From NCBI GenBank assembly GCA_017626145.1, contig JAGAJK010000017.1, positions 1 to 48,997 on the forward strand: a stretch of DNA of 48,997 bases, written 5' to 3'. The notes under the pieces were generated by a model. The model saw only the letters and a list, made by a program, of their open reading frames with translations, ran no database searches and had not been told where the DNA came from. Below, in pieces: positions 1-46,504 of this stretch. Every line of letters starts with the position of its first letter. Positions within the stretch are counted from its first letter, which is position 1. This DNA comes from Clostridia bacterium (GTDB taxonomy: Bacteria > Bacillota > Clostridia > RGIG6154). Made by a program: the position numbers and the translations under genes.

Positions 1-10
1 TACCAGGAGT

Positions 11-38
11 AAAAATGCTTGCTTGCAAGGGCATTTTT
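11..38. terminator. Terminator-like hairpin at the left edge
   Basis: An 8-bp stem (AAAAATGC at 11-18 with GCATTTTT at 31-38) surrounds a GC-containing loop and has A- and T-rich flanks on both strands. This is the form of a bidirectional intrinsic terminator. It lies beyond the 3' end of the minus-strand accessory genes and may terminate them, or a gene outside the window. Confidence 0.5.
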
Positions 39-40
39 AC

Positions 41-121
41 GACGCCGTCAATATTGCAAAATGTACGAAGTACATTGGCGGCAAAGCCGCAAAGACTTGC
101 AACGCAAGGCTTGTTGCATAT
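41..121. repeat. Cloverleaf-like mini-hairpin cluster
   Basis: Three adjacent perfect hairpins (60-76 AATGTAC-gaa-GTACATT style, 78-90 GCGGC-aaa-GCCGC, 96-108 CTTGC-aac-GCAAG) sit inside an imperfect closing stem (ATATTGCAA at 51-59 with TTGCATAT at 114-121). A small GAC-gcc-GTC hairpin at 41-49 precedes it. All loops are three bases. The cluster lies downstream of the AbiTii-type gene, at the opposite end of the accessory genes from the larger palindrome at 3432-3613. Bases 122-206 are AT-rich and show no gene. Function unknown. Confidence 0.6.
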
Positions 122-206
122 ATTATAATTTATGTAAATATTATAAATCGGCAAACTATTCTTTTAAATTGTATGGACTTGACACAAGTAAAAACGTTAT
201 GGTCAA

Positions 207-1208
207 TTATTCTTCTTGCAAAGACAAAATATCTCCAATGCAAACATAAGTATGTATTATACATTGCATTGCATCTCTTTTTGTAATTTCATTATGAACT
301 CCTTTTGATTGAAGATTACTTAAGTACTCTATTCTATCTATCAAGTATACAATGTTACTACCAATAAGACTTTTCGACATTGACCTATCCGTTAAATTCT
401 CTATTACTGCTGAAAGTTTATTAAGATAATGATCCCCACTTACATCTATATCTTTTCCCGATTTAGTCTTGTAGGTTTTTTCGCTATAATTGGGAAAATA
501 TTTATCAAATAATTCTTTAGATATATTTTCAAATAATCTCCTACAAGTCATTAAGGCTTGCGAAAACATTTCCGGATTATCTGAATTTAGTTTATCTTCA
601 ATTGCCTGCAACTTCAACAATGCTGAAGTAGATATTTTAGAAAAATGATTATCAACTGATTCCCTGTATTGAGAAAAAACATCAGCTGTAACATTGCCAA
701 AGGTTAATTCTATTTGCTTTTTCAATGCATAGTCATAGTATTGTGATTTAAGTTTAGATAACTTGGTTTCATTTTCCGAGACTTGTTTCAATAATACTCC
801 TGTTGAACTTGTAACAGACCTAGTCAACGAATCCATTGCCCAGTGTGCATGCTCTCCTGCTGTAGAAACTCCCTCTGTTGTAAAATTATTAATAGCTTTA
901 CTTTGTGTTTCTATTCTTTTTTCCAATTCTGAAGCTAATTCAGTAAATATTATCTTTTCCTTCTTATCATTATAACTACCTCTGCCATTTTTATAAGCAA
1001 TCTCCCATGCTTCATGTTCTATATGTCCATCAGCTTTTCTTGGATATCCAGAATTTTCATATGTTAACCATTCTATAGCCTCAAAATCATTTAAAAGCCT
1101 AGCAATACGCATACAAAGCAGCAACGCTGATGAAACTGCTATTGTCCCAAGTTCAAATCCTTCCAGCACCTTATCGCAGGCTTCCAATGCGTGTTCTATT
1201 TTTGTCAT
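207..1208 (-). CDS. AbiTii-domain protein, putative phage-defence component
   Basis: A 333-residue soluble protein with no signal peptide or membrane segment. The N-terminal ~85 residues resemble the AbiTii domain: a short helical region, then a segment with EAIEWLTYENSGYP (around residues 43-56), matching the family pattern of a Trp/Glu-rich helix ending in GYP. The middle (about 90-200) is helical and charged. The C-terminal part has a Cys-Arg-Arg helix (around residue 225) and an SKGVHNEIT segment close to the end, as in other AbiTii/HEPN-like proteins. AbiTii proteins are predicted, mostly uncharacterised, abortive-infection factors. AAAGGA lies 8 nt before the ATG. It is the last of three co-oriented accessory genes, 93 bp after the nuclease-like gene. 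The family call is by eye; the defence role is inference. Confidence 0.6.
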   Translation of the reverse strand: MTKIEHALEACDKVLEGFELGTIAVSSALLLCMRIARLLNDFEAIEWLTYENSGYPRKADGHIEHEAWEIAYKNGRGSYNDKKEKIIFTELASELEKRIETQSKAINNFTTEGVSTAGEHAHWAMDSLTRSVTSSTGVLLKQVSENETKLSKLKSQYYDYALKKQIELTFGNVTADVFSQYRESVDNHFSKISTSALLKLQAIEDKLNSDNPEMFSQALMTCRRLFENISKELFDKYFPNYSEKTYKTKSGKDIDVSGDHYLNKLSAVIENLTDRSMSKSLIGSNIVYLIDRIEYLSNLQSKGVHNEITKRDAMQCIIHTYVCIGDILSLQEE

Positions 1209-1301
1209 TTGAATTATCCTTTCTATACTTTATCTGTATAATCAACCATCATCTTTGTTAATACAAAATTGTTCTATGTAGATATAAAACAAGTAAGATA
1301 T

Positions 1302-2984
1302 TTATTTTTGCTTACTTCGCTTTTCTCTATAACACTCTGGGCAGCCTCTGCCATTACTCCTATTATTTACTGATGTTTCCCATTCATGGCCTTTATCACA
1401 TATCCACCAATATTTTTTATTGCTGTGTTCGGTGACTTGTGAAGGCAAAACATTTTCATTTTTTGAATAGTTCCATGTTTTTGCAATATCAGGACGCAAT
1501 GTCTCCAAATCATTAAAGCCAGCTAACACCTTTTTCCCTGCACAAATAGGACAACCTTCGCCTCTAATTCTTTTTAAAATAGACTTTGTATAACTATGTC
1601 CTTTTTCACATTTCCAATGCACTACTCTTTCGCCACCACCATATATTTCCGATGGATTGACATCGTTCTTTGTATAGTCCCAATATTTTAGTAATTCTGG
1701 ATATTTTGATGCCAAATCGTTTCCTGCTCTTTTTAAAAGGTTACGATGTTTAGAACAAACGCTACCTTGGGCAATTTTGCTTGGCAACGCCAAATATGAT
1801 CTGTTGCATATTTTACACTTCCAATAAAACCGCTGTCCAGTACCAAGTGTTACCATTTCGGGGGTTATAGTCCCGTTTTTCTCATAATCCCACCTGTCAA
1901 CCAAATCAGGTCTGATAGTGGCAATACTGTTTTCTTTTCGTAAAGCAACATATTGATTTTTAATAGTAATGGCATCTCTTGAACAATCAATATTAATTGA
2001 GTTATCAACACCTAAAACTTCAAAAATATCCTTAACAAGGCAAGTCAAATCGTTGAAAGTGGTTCTTTCATTTATATAAAAATCTGCCTGTTCCTTTTCT
2101 TCGGTATACTTGTATTCTTTTACAACAAATAAGGCTATTCCAATAGATTTAAAGAACTCTTTTTTGAGAGCGTCCTTTTCGGTCTTTTCCTTATGTGAAA
2201 AATAGCCATTATATTCAATACCAACATTTTTTGAAGGAATAAATATATCAATTTCTCGTCCATCAAATATATATCTATTTACCGTATCCTGAAACACTTG
2301 TTTCAGATAAAAATAAATTGCTTGTTCTGGGAAGGATGTTTGGCTTTGCTGTGCACAAATTGGGCATCCTTGTCTATTACTTCTCTGTTTAACTGACATC
2401 AAATAATCATCATGCCCAAGAGGACAAATCCAATACACTTTTTTATTTGAATGAACAGTTACTTCTGTCGGTTTTGCAGTATTTTTTTTGCTCCACTCTG
2501 CTGCTAAATTCGGCAATTGCGACTGCAAATCATTATATCCATCAAGGACTTTTTGTCCTGCACAATAAGGGCATCCAACACCTTTAGTTGTTCGATTGCT
2601 TACATATGATTCATACTCACCGCCACACTTTTTACACTTCCACCAGACCTTTTTATTGCTTGCGAATGTAACTGTTTCGGGAGTGATATCGCCATTTTTT
2701 TCATAATTCCATTCGGTGGCAACTTGAGGATAAAACGTTTCTATATCATTATAACCTTTTAATACTTTTTTACCTGCACAGTAGGAACAACCGTTACCGC
2801 TAACTCTATTCTTTATTTGCGCTTCATAGGAATGTCCTTTTTTGCAAACCCACCATACTTTTGTGCGGCTTCCTTGGGTCAAAATCTGTGGATCGAATCC
2901 CAAATCATTATTCTTTTTCCAGTTCCACTCTGCCATAAGTTGAGCATTATCGCTCACATATCTTTTTTCTTTCTTTTCTGCCAT
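1302..2984 (-). CDS. Six-zinc-ribbon protein with central VSR/PD-(D/E)XK-like nuclease domain
   Basis: A 560-residue protein. It has three treble-clef/zinc-ribbon repeats (about 20-70, 92-141, 163-210), a nuclease-like domain (about 217-290), then three more ribbons (about 365-410, 435-481, 505-551). Each repeat begins with a W-[ND]-[YW]-x-K-N element, has W-x-C-xx-GH or W-x-C-xx-C, and ends in G-C-[PS]-x-C; this is the DUF4379/PF14311 pattern. The central block contains FPEQ, EIDIFIP and GIEYNG followed by SH, the acidic/core pattern of very-short-patch-repair-like restriction folds. The ATG at 2984 has AAAGGAG 9 nt upstream; the in-frame TTG at 2993 abuts the Shine-Dalgarno and is rejected. 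Ribbon 4 is atypical (C-SKH instead of C-P-x-C). Such proteins occur in mobile and defence regions; the substrate is unknown. Confidence 0.75.
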   Translation of the reverse strand: MAEKKEKRYVSDNAQLMAEWNWKKNNDLGFDPQILTQGSRTKVWWVCKKGHSYEAQIKNRVSGNGCSYCAGKKVLKGYNDIETFYPQVATEWNYEKNGDITPETVTFASNKKVWWKCKKCGGEYESYVSNRTTKGVGCPYCAGQKVLDGYNDLQSQLPNLAAEWSKKNTAKPTEVTVHSNKKVYWICPLGHDDYLMSVKQRSNRQGCPICAQQSQTSFPEQAIYFYLKQVFQDTVNRYIFDGREIDIFIPSKNVGIEYNGYFSHKEKTEKDALKKEFFKSIGIALFVVKEYKYTEEKEQADFYINERTTFNDLTCLVKDIFEVLGVDNSINIDCSRDAITIKNQYVALRKENSIATIRPDLVDRWDYEKNGTITPEMVTLGTGQRFYWKCKICNRSYLALPSKIAQGSVCSKHRNLLKRAGNDLASKYPELLKYWDYTKNDVNPSEIYGGGERVVHWKCEKGHSYTKSILKRIRGEGCPICAGKKVLAGFNDLETLRPDIAKTWNYSKNENVLPSQVTEHSNKKYWWICDKGHEWETSVNNRSNGRGCPECYREKRSKQK

Positions 2985-3058
2985 AATACTCAACTCCTTT
3001 TAATTTCATTTTTCAACACTATTTGGCACCATTCAGCATAATTCAACTTTTGTTAAAA

Positions 3059-3412
3059 TTATTGATTGCCCTTTGCAGTATTTATTGATGCAATTAACAG
3101 TTTACGAATCTTACTGCATTTATCATACATATCAGCATATTCTATTTCGGTTATCATTTTTGTTTCTTTAAACAATCCTAACCAATAATCACTTTCATAG
3201 CATTCTTTCAATGCAATCTGAAACTTATTGATGAAATCAGCTTTGCTTGATGCGTAGTTTGCTTCGTGGATATTTGCACCTATGCTCGTTCCACTTCTTA
3301 ACAACTGATTTAACAAAACATTTCCCTTCCGGTTTTCTTTTATATCAGTGCATAAATTAACAATATCAACTGCAAACATTTTTGATAATTCGATAAGTTT
3401 ATTTTCTTTCAT
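3059..3412 (-). CDS. Four-helix-bundle protein (S23 / 23S rRNA intervening-sequence protein family)
   Basis: A 117-residue helical protein of the usual length for the S23/IVP family. It has the family signature: a first helix, NQLLRSGTSIGANIHEA (about residues 35-51; R-S-x-S-I-x-x-N-I-x-E is diagnostic), then KADFINKFQIALKE and a Tyr/Trp-containing third helix with WLGL. The same fold is found in proteins encoded within 23S rRNA intervening sequences and in the Avd accessory protein of diversity-generating retroelements, which bind nucleic acid; no reverse transcriptase is present here. GGAGA precedes the ATG. It is the first gene after the promoter at 3662-3690, and its 5' leader contains the fishbone palindrome at 3432-3613. 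The neighbours suggest a role linked to that structure, but this is inference. Confidence 0.85.
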   Translation of the reverse strand: MKENKLIELSKMFAVDIVNLCTDIKENRKGNVLLNQLLRSGTSIGANIHEANYASSKADFINKFQIALKECYESDYWLGLFKETKMITEIEYADMYDKCSKIRKLLIASINTAKGNQ

Positions 3413-3431
3413 TGCTATTCTCCATTTCTTA

Positions 3432-3613
3432 ATGAATTGACAACTTTATTGTCATGAATTGGCTCCGCCATGAATTCTCGCTATCGCTCCATGAATTGAA
3501 TTGCCTTTTAATGCACCTCCAGTGCAATTCATGAGCCGCAAGGCTCAATTCGTGAAATCACAGATTTCAATTAATGCCGTCAGGCAATTCATTGAGTCTG
3601 CTTTGCAAACTCA
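3432..3613. repeat. Fishbone palindrome: heptamer-linked mini-hairpin array
   Basis: The heptamer ATGAATT occurs at 3432, 3454, 3470 and 3491. Its complement AATTCAT, or a one- to two-base variant, occurs at 3526, 3547, 3569 and 3586, mirror-symmetric about ~3512. The segments between heptamers are themselves small hairpins of unrelated sequence: 3439-3453, 3461-3469, a degenerate one at 3477-3490, 3516-3530 (central), 3533-3546, 3554-3568, 3576-3585 and 3592-3612. Folded, the strand makes one long interrupted stem of heptamer pairs with side hairpins on both sides. Bases 3413-3755 hold no gene. The array lies between the promoter and the start of the four-helix-bundle gene and would be transcribed as its leader. 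Confidence 0.85.
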
Positions 3614-3661
3614 TGTCAAGTCAGGGTAAAAAGTTAAACTGCATTTTTCATTATTTTATTT

Positions 3662-3690
3662 ATTATACCATAAACTTCTGCTACAGACAA
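3662..3690 (-). promoter_or_regulatory. Sigma-A-type promoter for the accessory operon
   Basis: On the minus strand, TTGTCT (3685-3690), a 17-bp spacer and TATAAT (3662-3667). Transcription would start near 3655, run through the fishbone palindrome and reach the four-helix-bundle ATG at 3412, giving a structured leader of about 240 nt. Confidence 0.6.
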
Positions 3691-3722: not shown

Positions 3723-3754
3723 CAAAACGGTCGGCGTCTTTGCCGACCGTTTTG
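3723..3754 (-). terminator. Intrinsic terminator of the PurH-like gene
   Basis: A 12-bp perfect stem (AAAACGGTCGGC with GCCGACCGTTTT) and six-base loop, two bases past the stop codon of the PurH-like gene, ending in TTTT on the minus strand. Confidence 0.85.
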
Positions 3755-24438: not shown

Positions 24439-24470
24439 TTGATATTTTTTGTAAATTTATTAATAAAATT

Positions 24471-24811
24471 GAGCAGGTCTGTAAGCCGGGTTCTGTATTT
24501 GACAATCATCTATCTAGACCGAATATCTCTAAACGGTTCAAGCCACCTACCCAGGAGCGTCGGGCCAACGTATTCTCCTAATGCGGTGTTGCTCCGGATG
24601 GGGTTTACACGAAAGGAGTGATTACCCACTCCCCAGTGAGCTCTTACCTCACTATTCCACCCTTACCGCAAAAATGCGGCGGTTTATTTTCTGTTGCACT
24701 TTCCTTAGAGTCGCCTCCACCGGGTAACTATCCGGCATCCTGCCCTATGGAGCCCGGACTTTCCTCACGCACATCCTTTCGGATTTGTGCCCGCGATTGT
24801 CTGGCCTGCTC
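24471..24811 (-). ncRNA. rnpB: RNase P RNA, class A
   Basis: About 341 nt. Read on the minus strand, the 5' end GAGCAGGCCAGACA pairs with the 3' end AGACCTGCTC (P1). The conserved core is present: GAGGAAAGTCCGGGCTCC, the GGATGCCGGATAGTTACC region, GGTAAGGGTGGAA and ACAGAACCCGGCTTA near the 3' end. It is the catalytic subunit that trims tRNA 5' ends. Its promoter lies in the end of the upstream Nif3-like gene. Confidence 0.97.
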
Positions 24812-24812
24812 A

Positions 24813-32910: not shown

Positions 32911-32924
<14 letters not shown>
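32865..32924. repeat. 18-bp inverted repeat covering the 3' end of tRNA-His
   Basis: CTTCATTCGCCCCACAAA (32865-32882) is the exact reverse complement of 32907-32924, the latter being the T-arm edge, acceptor strand and CCA of tRNA-His plus four trailing bases. The terminator hairpin sits in the centre. A read-through transcript could pair with the tRNA 3' end. Confidence 0.85.
32877..32905 (-). terminator. Terminator of the tRNA operon
   Basis: AAGAACGC-gaaa-GCGTTCTT with eight T on the minus strand, directly after the encoded CCA of tRNA-His. Confidence 0.88.
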
Positions 32925-32988
<64 letters not shown>

Positions 32989-33012
32989 ATATTAAAATTA
33001 TGTCGCAAAGTG

Positions 33013-33089
<77 letters not shown>

Positions 33090-33092
33090 ACA

Positions 33093-33166
33093 TGGAGCGG
33101 GTGATGGGAATCGAACCCACACGACCAGCTTGGAAGGCTGGGGTTCTACCATTGAACTACACCCGC
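33093..33166 (-). tRNA. tRNA-Gly (TCC)
   Basis: Acceptor GCGGGTG/CACCCGC, anticodon loop CTTCCAA (TCC, reads GGA/GGG), T-loop GTTCGATTC and encoded CCA. It is the first tRNA after the promoter at 33186-33214. Confidence 0.96.
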
Positions 33167-46378: not shown

Positions 46379-46396
46379 AGAAGCCTCAAGTATGTA

Positions 46397-46489
46397 CAGC
46401 GGGATGCAGATACCTTACCGCAACAATTGTTTTCGTCCGCAAAGCAACTCCCCGTCCCTGCGGCACTTAACGCAAAGTATCTTACTCTG
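46397..46489 (-). promoter_or_regulatory. Tetrahydrofolate (THF) riboswitch
   Basis: Read on the minus strand, the ~93-nt element has CAGAGTA at the 5' end, GCGTTAAGTG, a central GGGA/CGG region, GCGGTAAGGTATC and TGCATCCCGCTG at the 3' end. These are the conserved blocks of the folT-type THF riboswitch (class I). It binds reduced folates and turns off folT-folC. Confidence 0.92.
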
Positions 46490-46504
46490 ATTTATTACCC
46501 TAAA

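Follow-up and report, generated by a model that had tools for sequence, protein, structure and literature searches.

Inverted arrays of heptamer words beside S23 four-helix-bundle genes, a probable family of mobile elements

The hairpin array and its surroundings

We analysed a window of 48,997 bases, the complete contig C83 of a 2.78-Mb Clostridia genome (G000). An earlier note on this DNA had described a promoter-driven leader that folds into a heptamer-linked hairpin array, followed by three co-oriented genes, and had proposed a defence or mobile module bounded by structured ends. The hairpin array is confirmed, and so are three minus-strand genes 3' of it, separated by short gaps (Table 1). 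The naming of the three products also held: an S23/IVP four-helix-bundle protein, a zinc-ribbon protein whose REase-like middle is weak, and an AbiTii-like protein. The proposed promoter is present as sequence, but that it drives the leader is unproven, because similar sites are expected by chance: the consensus scan found two sigma-70-type sites in comparison with 1.5 in shuffles. The window contains no rRNA match, and the fishbone, as we call the array, matched no Rfam model above its gathering score. Ordinary RNA genes in the window are an RNase P RNA of class A, a THF riboswitch and three tRNAs (24466-24812, 46395-46491, 32911-33166).

Table 1. Features at the array locus, in window coordinates
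Feature	Position	Strand	Basis or remark
Part of unrelated MITE-like repeat	1..190		holds the 41-121 hairpins; end GGACTTGACACAAG at about 175-188; outside the element
AbiTii-like protein, 333 aa	207..1208	-	PADLOC 4.6e-11, slightly below Pfam's own cut-off; flanking gene, outside the element
Zinc-ribbon protein, DUF4379 x6, 563 aa, weak REase-like middle	1302..2993	-	Pfam; flanking gene, outside the element
S23/IVP four-helix-bundle protein, 117 aa	3059..3412	-	PF05635 1.6e-24, TIGR02436 2.3e-28, PDB 2rld 3.2e-26
Likely ribosome-binding site (RBS) GGAG of the S23 gene	3420..3423	-	sequence
Fishbone core, 163 nt	3431..3593	-	alignment of 31 loci, rib covariation, arm-swap test, CM match 148.8 bits
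hp0, leading hairpin GAGTTTGC-AAA-GCAGACTC	3594..3612	-	abuts the first linker on its 5' side
Possible promoter TTGTCT-17-TATAAT	3662..3690	-	consensus scan, 10/12
Terminator-like hairpin 3' of the upstream AICARFT/IMPCHase gene	3723..3754	-	13 pairs, 8 GC; separates that gene from the S23 unit

The left half of the fishbone core carries the linkers AATGAATTG, CATTAATTG, CACGAATTG and CATGAATTG, with the general form ATGAATTG, that is (A)TGAATTG, and the right half carries GGCAATTCAATTCAT, AATTCATG, CAATTCATG and CAATTCATT, with the general form CAATTCAT. Hairpin ribs stand between successive linkers in both halves, and the two outermost linkers form a perfect inverted repeat, AATGAATTG on one side and CAATTCATT on the other. 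A hairpin of varying sequence occupies the hp0 position in all fishbones inspected. Its origin depends on the family, being derived from the target in some (tRNA terminators) and repeated along with the element in others.

Core and hp0 together fold as RNA with z = -3.2, and 1 of 200 shuffles was equally stable. Aligning the array with its 31 relatives, we found that the linkers are almost unchanged, while rib sequences are free to vary. Nevertheless, 97% of rib pairs are kept, with a covariation score of 0.432 versus 0.146 +- 0.012 when shuffled; sliding the rib partners lowers pairing to 22-46%, and when rib arms are swapped among sequences, the average count of outer pairs drops from 5.0 to 3.4 of 6. 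On this comparative evidence the array is far beyond chance. Since the linkers are nearly invariant and the ribs change yet stay paired, selection evidently preserves hairpin formation in the ribs and the sequence itself in the words. Counts of G-U against A-C pairs, which bear on selection at the RNA or DNA level, were 16:9 (p 0.23) and 32:18 (p 0.065), with a control of 73:64, and were not significant. We rejected a complete nested backbone fold with four-way junctions, whose outer pairing has a probability of 0.56 and whose deeper pairing is energetically costly. In one relative (L130, G000:C29:24792-25023) the fifth rib is enlarged by a direct repeat of ~40 nt (GCGCCCTGAGCGAAGCGAGGAAGT...), which suggests that ribs can expand.

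The nuclease and AbiTii genes of the window are chance neighbours. No DUF4379 or AbiTii relative stands beside S23 at ~185 other S23-linked loci; S23 has neighbours of all sorts, among them prfB, GlnRS, V-ATPase D and ilvD, and the genes 3' of it are just as varied; and the DUF4379 protein is present in just 14 of 245 genomes of the class. The three-gene defence module is therefore unsupported. A joint anti-phage role for fishbone, S23, nuclease and AbiTii could draw on the shared orientation and short gaps of the genes, on AbiTii being a PADLOC model, and on the S23 genes found elsewhere within CRISPR or R-M operons. However, relatives of the nuclease and AbiTii proteins are missing from the other S23-linked loci, the neighbours at other loci are mainly housekeeping or unrelated genes, solo fishbones lie between housekeeping genes, and one of the supposed structured ends is part of another repeat; we consider such a role extremely improbable. 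For AbiTii itself, no PADLOC partner model matched the other two proteins of the locus. Rare co-occurrence, which the earlier note had named as telling against its proposal, was thus found for the module and not for the pair of S23 gene and array.

The second hairpin cluster (41-121) is real but only marginally stable (z = -2.0). It belongs to that other repeat and does not bound a module; the contig merely begins there. Positions 1-145 of the window occur 7 times in the genome and resemble a portion of a MITE whose ends are GACTTGACACAAG. The same MITE-like repeat is present in contigs C7, C10, C93, C47 and C75 of G000, where the assembly breaks at the repeat. Several fishbones are preceded by a GACTTGACAYGA sequence resembling it.

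S23 genes, array position and word types

A protein search returned 351 relatives, from which 80 loci were retained. The window fishbone ends ~16 nt before its S23 gene, and across the 80 loci the distance to the S23 ATG is 13-18 nt in most. Our array score was blind to motif: it looked for a 6-mer that recurs on the left side and is matched by its reverse complement on the right side, with a threshold of >=12 that 0.6% of control windows pass. Arrays were found upstream of 55 of the 80 genes and downstream of 3 of 78; in a class-wide S23 sample drawn via Pfam, they were upstream in 36/117 and downstream in 4/115. The special link between bundle protein and array therefore stands, with the fishbone directly 5' of the S23 ATG in most relatives. 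About two thirds of the class-sample genes stay below the threshold. Identity around S23 genes peaks at spacings of 7, 14 and 21, whereas control windows show the codon period of 3 only, and this periodicity suggests that part of the below-threshold genes have degraded or rib-free arms. In the S23 subfamily of the window dN/dS is ~0.03; this strong purifying selection on S23 in fishbone elements indicates that the protein is functional. At L236, L238, L259, L263, L274 and L034 the arrays begin straight after the intrinsic terminator of a tRNA gene, and a promoter-like site then lies between array and S23.

Within the loci compared, each S23 clade has its own word, other clades using CGATAT, GCTAAAT, TGAAAT, GTGATG, GTGAAGT or ATGATAT. 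Linker type tracks the S23 tree: on a tree of 51 S23 proteins, eight word types require 8 changes, with a minimum of 7, as against 29.7 for shuffled labels (0/200 as low). Several S23 clades, each with its own word, occur in single genomes (at least three in G000), which ties the word to the protein rather than to the host. The matching of word to clade is the strongest indirect evidence that S23 may recognise the array, although joint descent could explain co-diversification without binding. At L190, L187, L128 and L126, fishbones of different word types stand in tandem, with a conserved spacer between them that has a GCATCTAAA motif and often GGCATCTAAATCGTTCACTGATTTTATAATGA.

Beyond the class, we inspected a set of 22 plasmid and phage loci (one phage contig included) from Cyanobacteriota, Bacteroidota, Spirochaetota, Chloroflexota and Bacillota. 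Inverted tandem heptamers lie on both flanks of the S23 gene in 19 of them, compared with 2% in controls (p ~1e-10); one Nostoc plasmid, for example, reads TAATTCG x4 - gene - TTACGAA x4, and on two Nostoc plasmids (100 kb) four of six strong heptad arrays flank S23 genes. Genome G221 carries four identical S23 intervening sequences (IVSs) within 23S rRNA genes (G221:C1, L299-L302), whose arms are likewise heptamers (GGTTAGA AGTGAGA AGTTAGA ... TCTAACG TCTAACA TCTGACT). The kinship with rRNA IVSs suspected at the outset thus has a true 23S rRNA case behind it. Because inverted heptamers stand on both sides of S23 in plasmids and form the IVS arms, the fishbone is best seen as a Clostridial form of these arms in which ribs separate the heptamers. 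Some plasmid elements lie within CRISPR or R-M operons: L361, L368 (cas2|S23|cas1), L371 (hsdS|S23|hsdR), L373 (helicase|S23|methylase) and L381 (cas6|S23|cas4).

Heptameric repeats have been described in their own right: the STRR of Nostoc/Anabaena, TAACTGA of Beggiatoaceae (PMC4679880), and GGGAATC/GGGGATT of Xanthomonas and Nostoc (PMC4692102). For such repeats 'no mechanism is evident' (PMC4679880), they are unassociated with known mobile elements (PMC4692102), and neither paper names a linked gene in the sections searched. Apart from a single report of heptameric repeats in the Coxiella IVS (see below), no general link between S23 and heptamers appeared in the open-access literature searched. 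DNA-polymerase slippage on 7-nt units is proposed for such repeats (PMC4692102, PMC4679880), and passive, hairpin-rich or slippage-made repeats might accumulate near S23 with no role for the protein. Slippage, however, gives no inverted copies on the far side, covarying ribs, matching of linker to clade or solo copies elsewhere, and we judge this account improbable.

Solo copies and insertion sites

Gene-less solo arrays number from several to ~15 per genome. G000 has seven window-type fishbones, one matching an intact S23 gene and six without a matching S23, and G003, from a sister genus of the same family, has ~15 solo fishbones. The solo arrays are intergenic and often directly past a stop codon. 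Several in G003 sit only a few bases from the stop codon of an operon gene and just 5' of the next RBS, at atpG|atpD, rnfC|rnfD and pgk|tpiA; the TGA stop of the upstream gene is often part of the first word. Comparing junctions at genus level, we found the arrays absent from relatives: G000 has 26 nt and no fishbone between pgk and tpiA, the rnfC|rnfD junction of G001 and G002 is empty, and tpiA|gpmI, which has both an array and an S23 gene in G003, lacks both in G000, G001 and G002. The fits in operon gaps are clean, and a consistent target-site duplication was not recognised. Solo copies in gaps, empty junctions and tandem arrangement of different word types are the marks of a mobile element settling between genes, so the suggestion of mobility, unlike that of defence, is upheld for the array. 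As a multicopy inverted repeat without an ORF at unrelated sites in one genome, the fishbone resembles MITE- or REP-type elements in this respect. No mobilising enzyme was found, and S23 is the only linked protein seen; to our knowledge, transposase-like activity is neither known nor predicted for S23. We rejected a phage origin: no DNA match turned up in phages, and IMG/VR gave one relative.

We also weighed whether the fishbone could act as a 5' UTR through which the S23 protein regulates its own synthesis by binding the leader. The solo copies would then make up a regulon under S23, with intercistronic RNA elements that adjust translation or mRNA cleavage. The short, constant spacing to the S23 ATG in most loci fits this idea, as do the solo copies immediately 5' of RBSs inside operons and the TATAAT promoters that often lie directly 5' of hp0. 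Against it, in the tRNA-linked relatives a promoter-like site follows the array, which may thus lie outside the S23 mRNA; the plasmid arms flank both sides of the gene; and solo positions vary among related genera, where the adjoining genes share no function. We therefore regard cis-regulation as rather unlikely.

Roughly half of the 80 loci map to the 3' end of rlmD/rumA, where ICEs are known to integrate (PMC4701971), and tandem cassettes with att-like rlmD ends occur there. The elements might accordingly be passengers of site-specific recombination (ICE or cassette integration at the rlmD 3' end) that have no mobility of their own, but this leaves unexplained the solo copies in operons, beside tRNA terminators and in 23S rRNA, and fishbones are not limited to rlmD-type att sites; we find it very improbable. 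We rejected rlmD as a functional partner of S23: identical hp0 DNA is joined to rlmD genes that diverge from one another, and the sites differ in other families, so that rlmD is more plausibly a hotspot for insertion or recombination. At the rlmD/rumA 3' end the cassettes stand in tandem arrays (L045:2216-6052; also L049, L043, L068, L081, L058 and L060), where a stretch of ~150 nt, an RBS and a single small ORF, or an R-M system in L049, come after each att-like site (CACGTCGAGAGTGTCGTTTGTCTGAC...). They look like serial site-specific integration, and no recombinase was found in the sequenced stretches around them. DUF559-like endonuclease-type genes at L127:1850-2283 and L043:4280-4792 follow a hairpin leader (GGGAAGGGGGACCGC...GCGGTGGATGAG) and adjoin fishbone or att sites.

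A probable mobile family and its relation to known systems

Among the loci compared, S23 genes of several phyla have an array no more than tens of bases away, built on words of heptamer length that read as reverse complements between its left and right halves. In Clostridia, covarying hairpin ribs often separate the words and make the array a fishbone. Fishbone and S23 gene are probably two parts of a mobile, apparently selfish family, the 'S23 heptamer element', with the rRNA IVS as one of its forms and S23 as the putative cognate binding protein. S23p has been reported to have no known function, and a solved homologue is a homopentamer (PMC4990558). We infer that S23 would bind its own words, presented in folded RNA or in single-stranded DNA, and that the complex would be needed for spread or upkeep of the element. 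The solo arrays would then be derivatives mobilised in trans, as REPINs are by RAYTs. By analogy with the rRNA IVS, the transcribed arms would fold and likely be cut by RNase III, so that insertion into operons and rRNA would be tolerable. Group IIC introns insert just after hairpins. The position of arrays after hairpins such as tRNA terminators would, speculatively, fit an RNA- or single-strand-based route.

More tentatively, and with a good deal less confidence than in the family itself, the elements could form a pan-bacterial mobile class in which S23/IVP proteins are the partners of heptanucleotide repeats. Here a pentameric four-helix bundle would read a clade-specific 7-nt word, the rRNA IVSs, cyanobacterial STRRs and Clostridial fishbones would all be forms of one class, and spread would proceed by a nucleic-acid-chaperone mechanism without a transposase of its own.

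The closest known relative is the 23S rRNA IVS. In Coxiella burnetii the IVS (helix 45) carries an S23p (PF05635) ORF of the same protein family preceded by tandem heptameric repeats, and RNase III excises the element (PMC4990558). Like the fishbone locus, IVSs lie in transcribed DNA and can have complementary heptamer arms (G221). The window copy differs in being intergenic, between protein genes and outside any rRNA gene. Its arms are complementary yet both 5' of the ORF, with no stem around it, whereas the arms of plasmid relatives surround the ORF; in addition, fishbone arms are interrupted by ribs and there are many solo copies. REPIN/RAYT systems and bacterial MITEs (PMC3116915, PMC10969869) are likewise short, hairpin-forming, multicopy inverted repeats with solo copies in intergenic regions, and REPINs too have a linked protein family. 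The fishbone partner, in contrast, is an S23 four-helix bundle with no known catalytic motif and not a transposase, and the arrays have 7-8 ribs and a clade-specific heptamer.

The Avd protein of diversity-generating retroelements is an S23-related four-helix bundle that binds nucleic acid. PMC10053308 lists PF05635. The difference here is that none of the three genes of the locus encodes a reverse transcriptase. With the published heptanucleotide repeats the arrays share tandem 7-nt units, an intergenic location and a patchy distribution over phyla; the difference is that here the arrays are inverted and flank S23 genes. The strict positional and phylogenetic link between S23 and heptamer turns two puzzles into one question, whether each S23 binds its own heptamer, and gives a testable account of how the unexplained seven-letter repeats of many bacterial genomes may have arisen. 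Fishbones also add a class of highly structured intercistronic RNA element inside essential operons.
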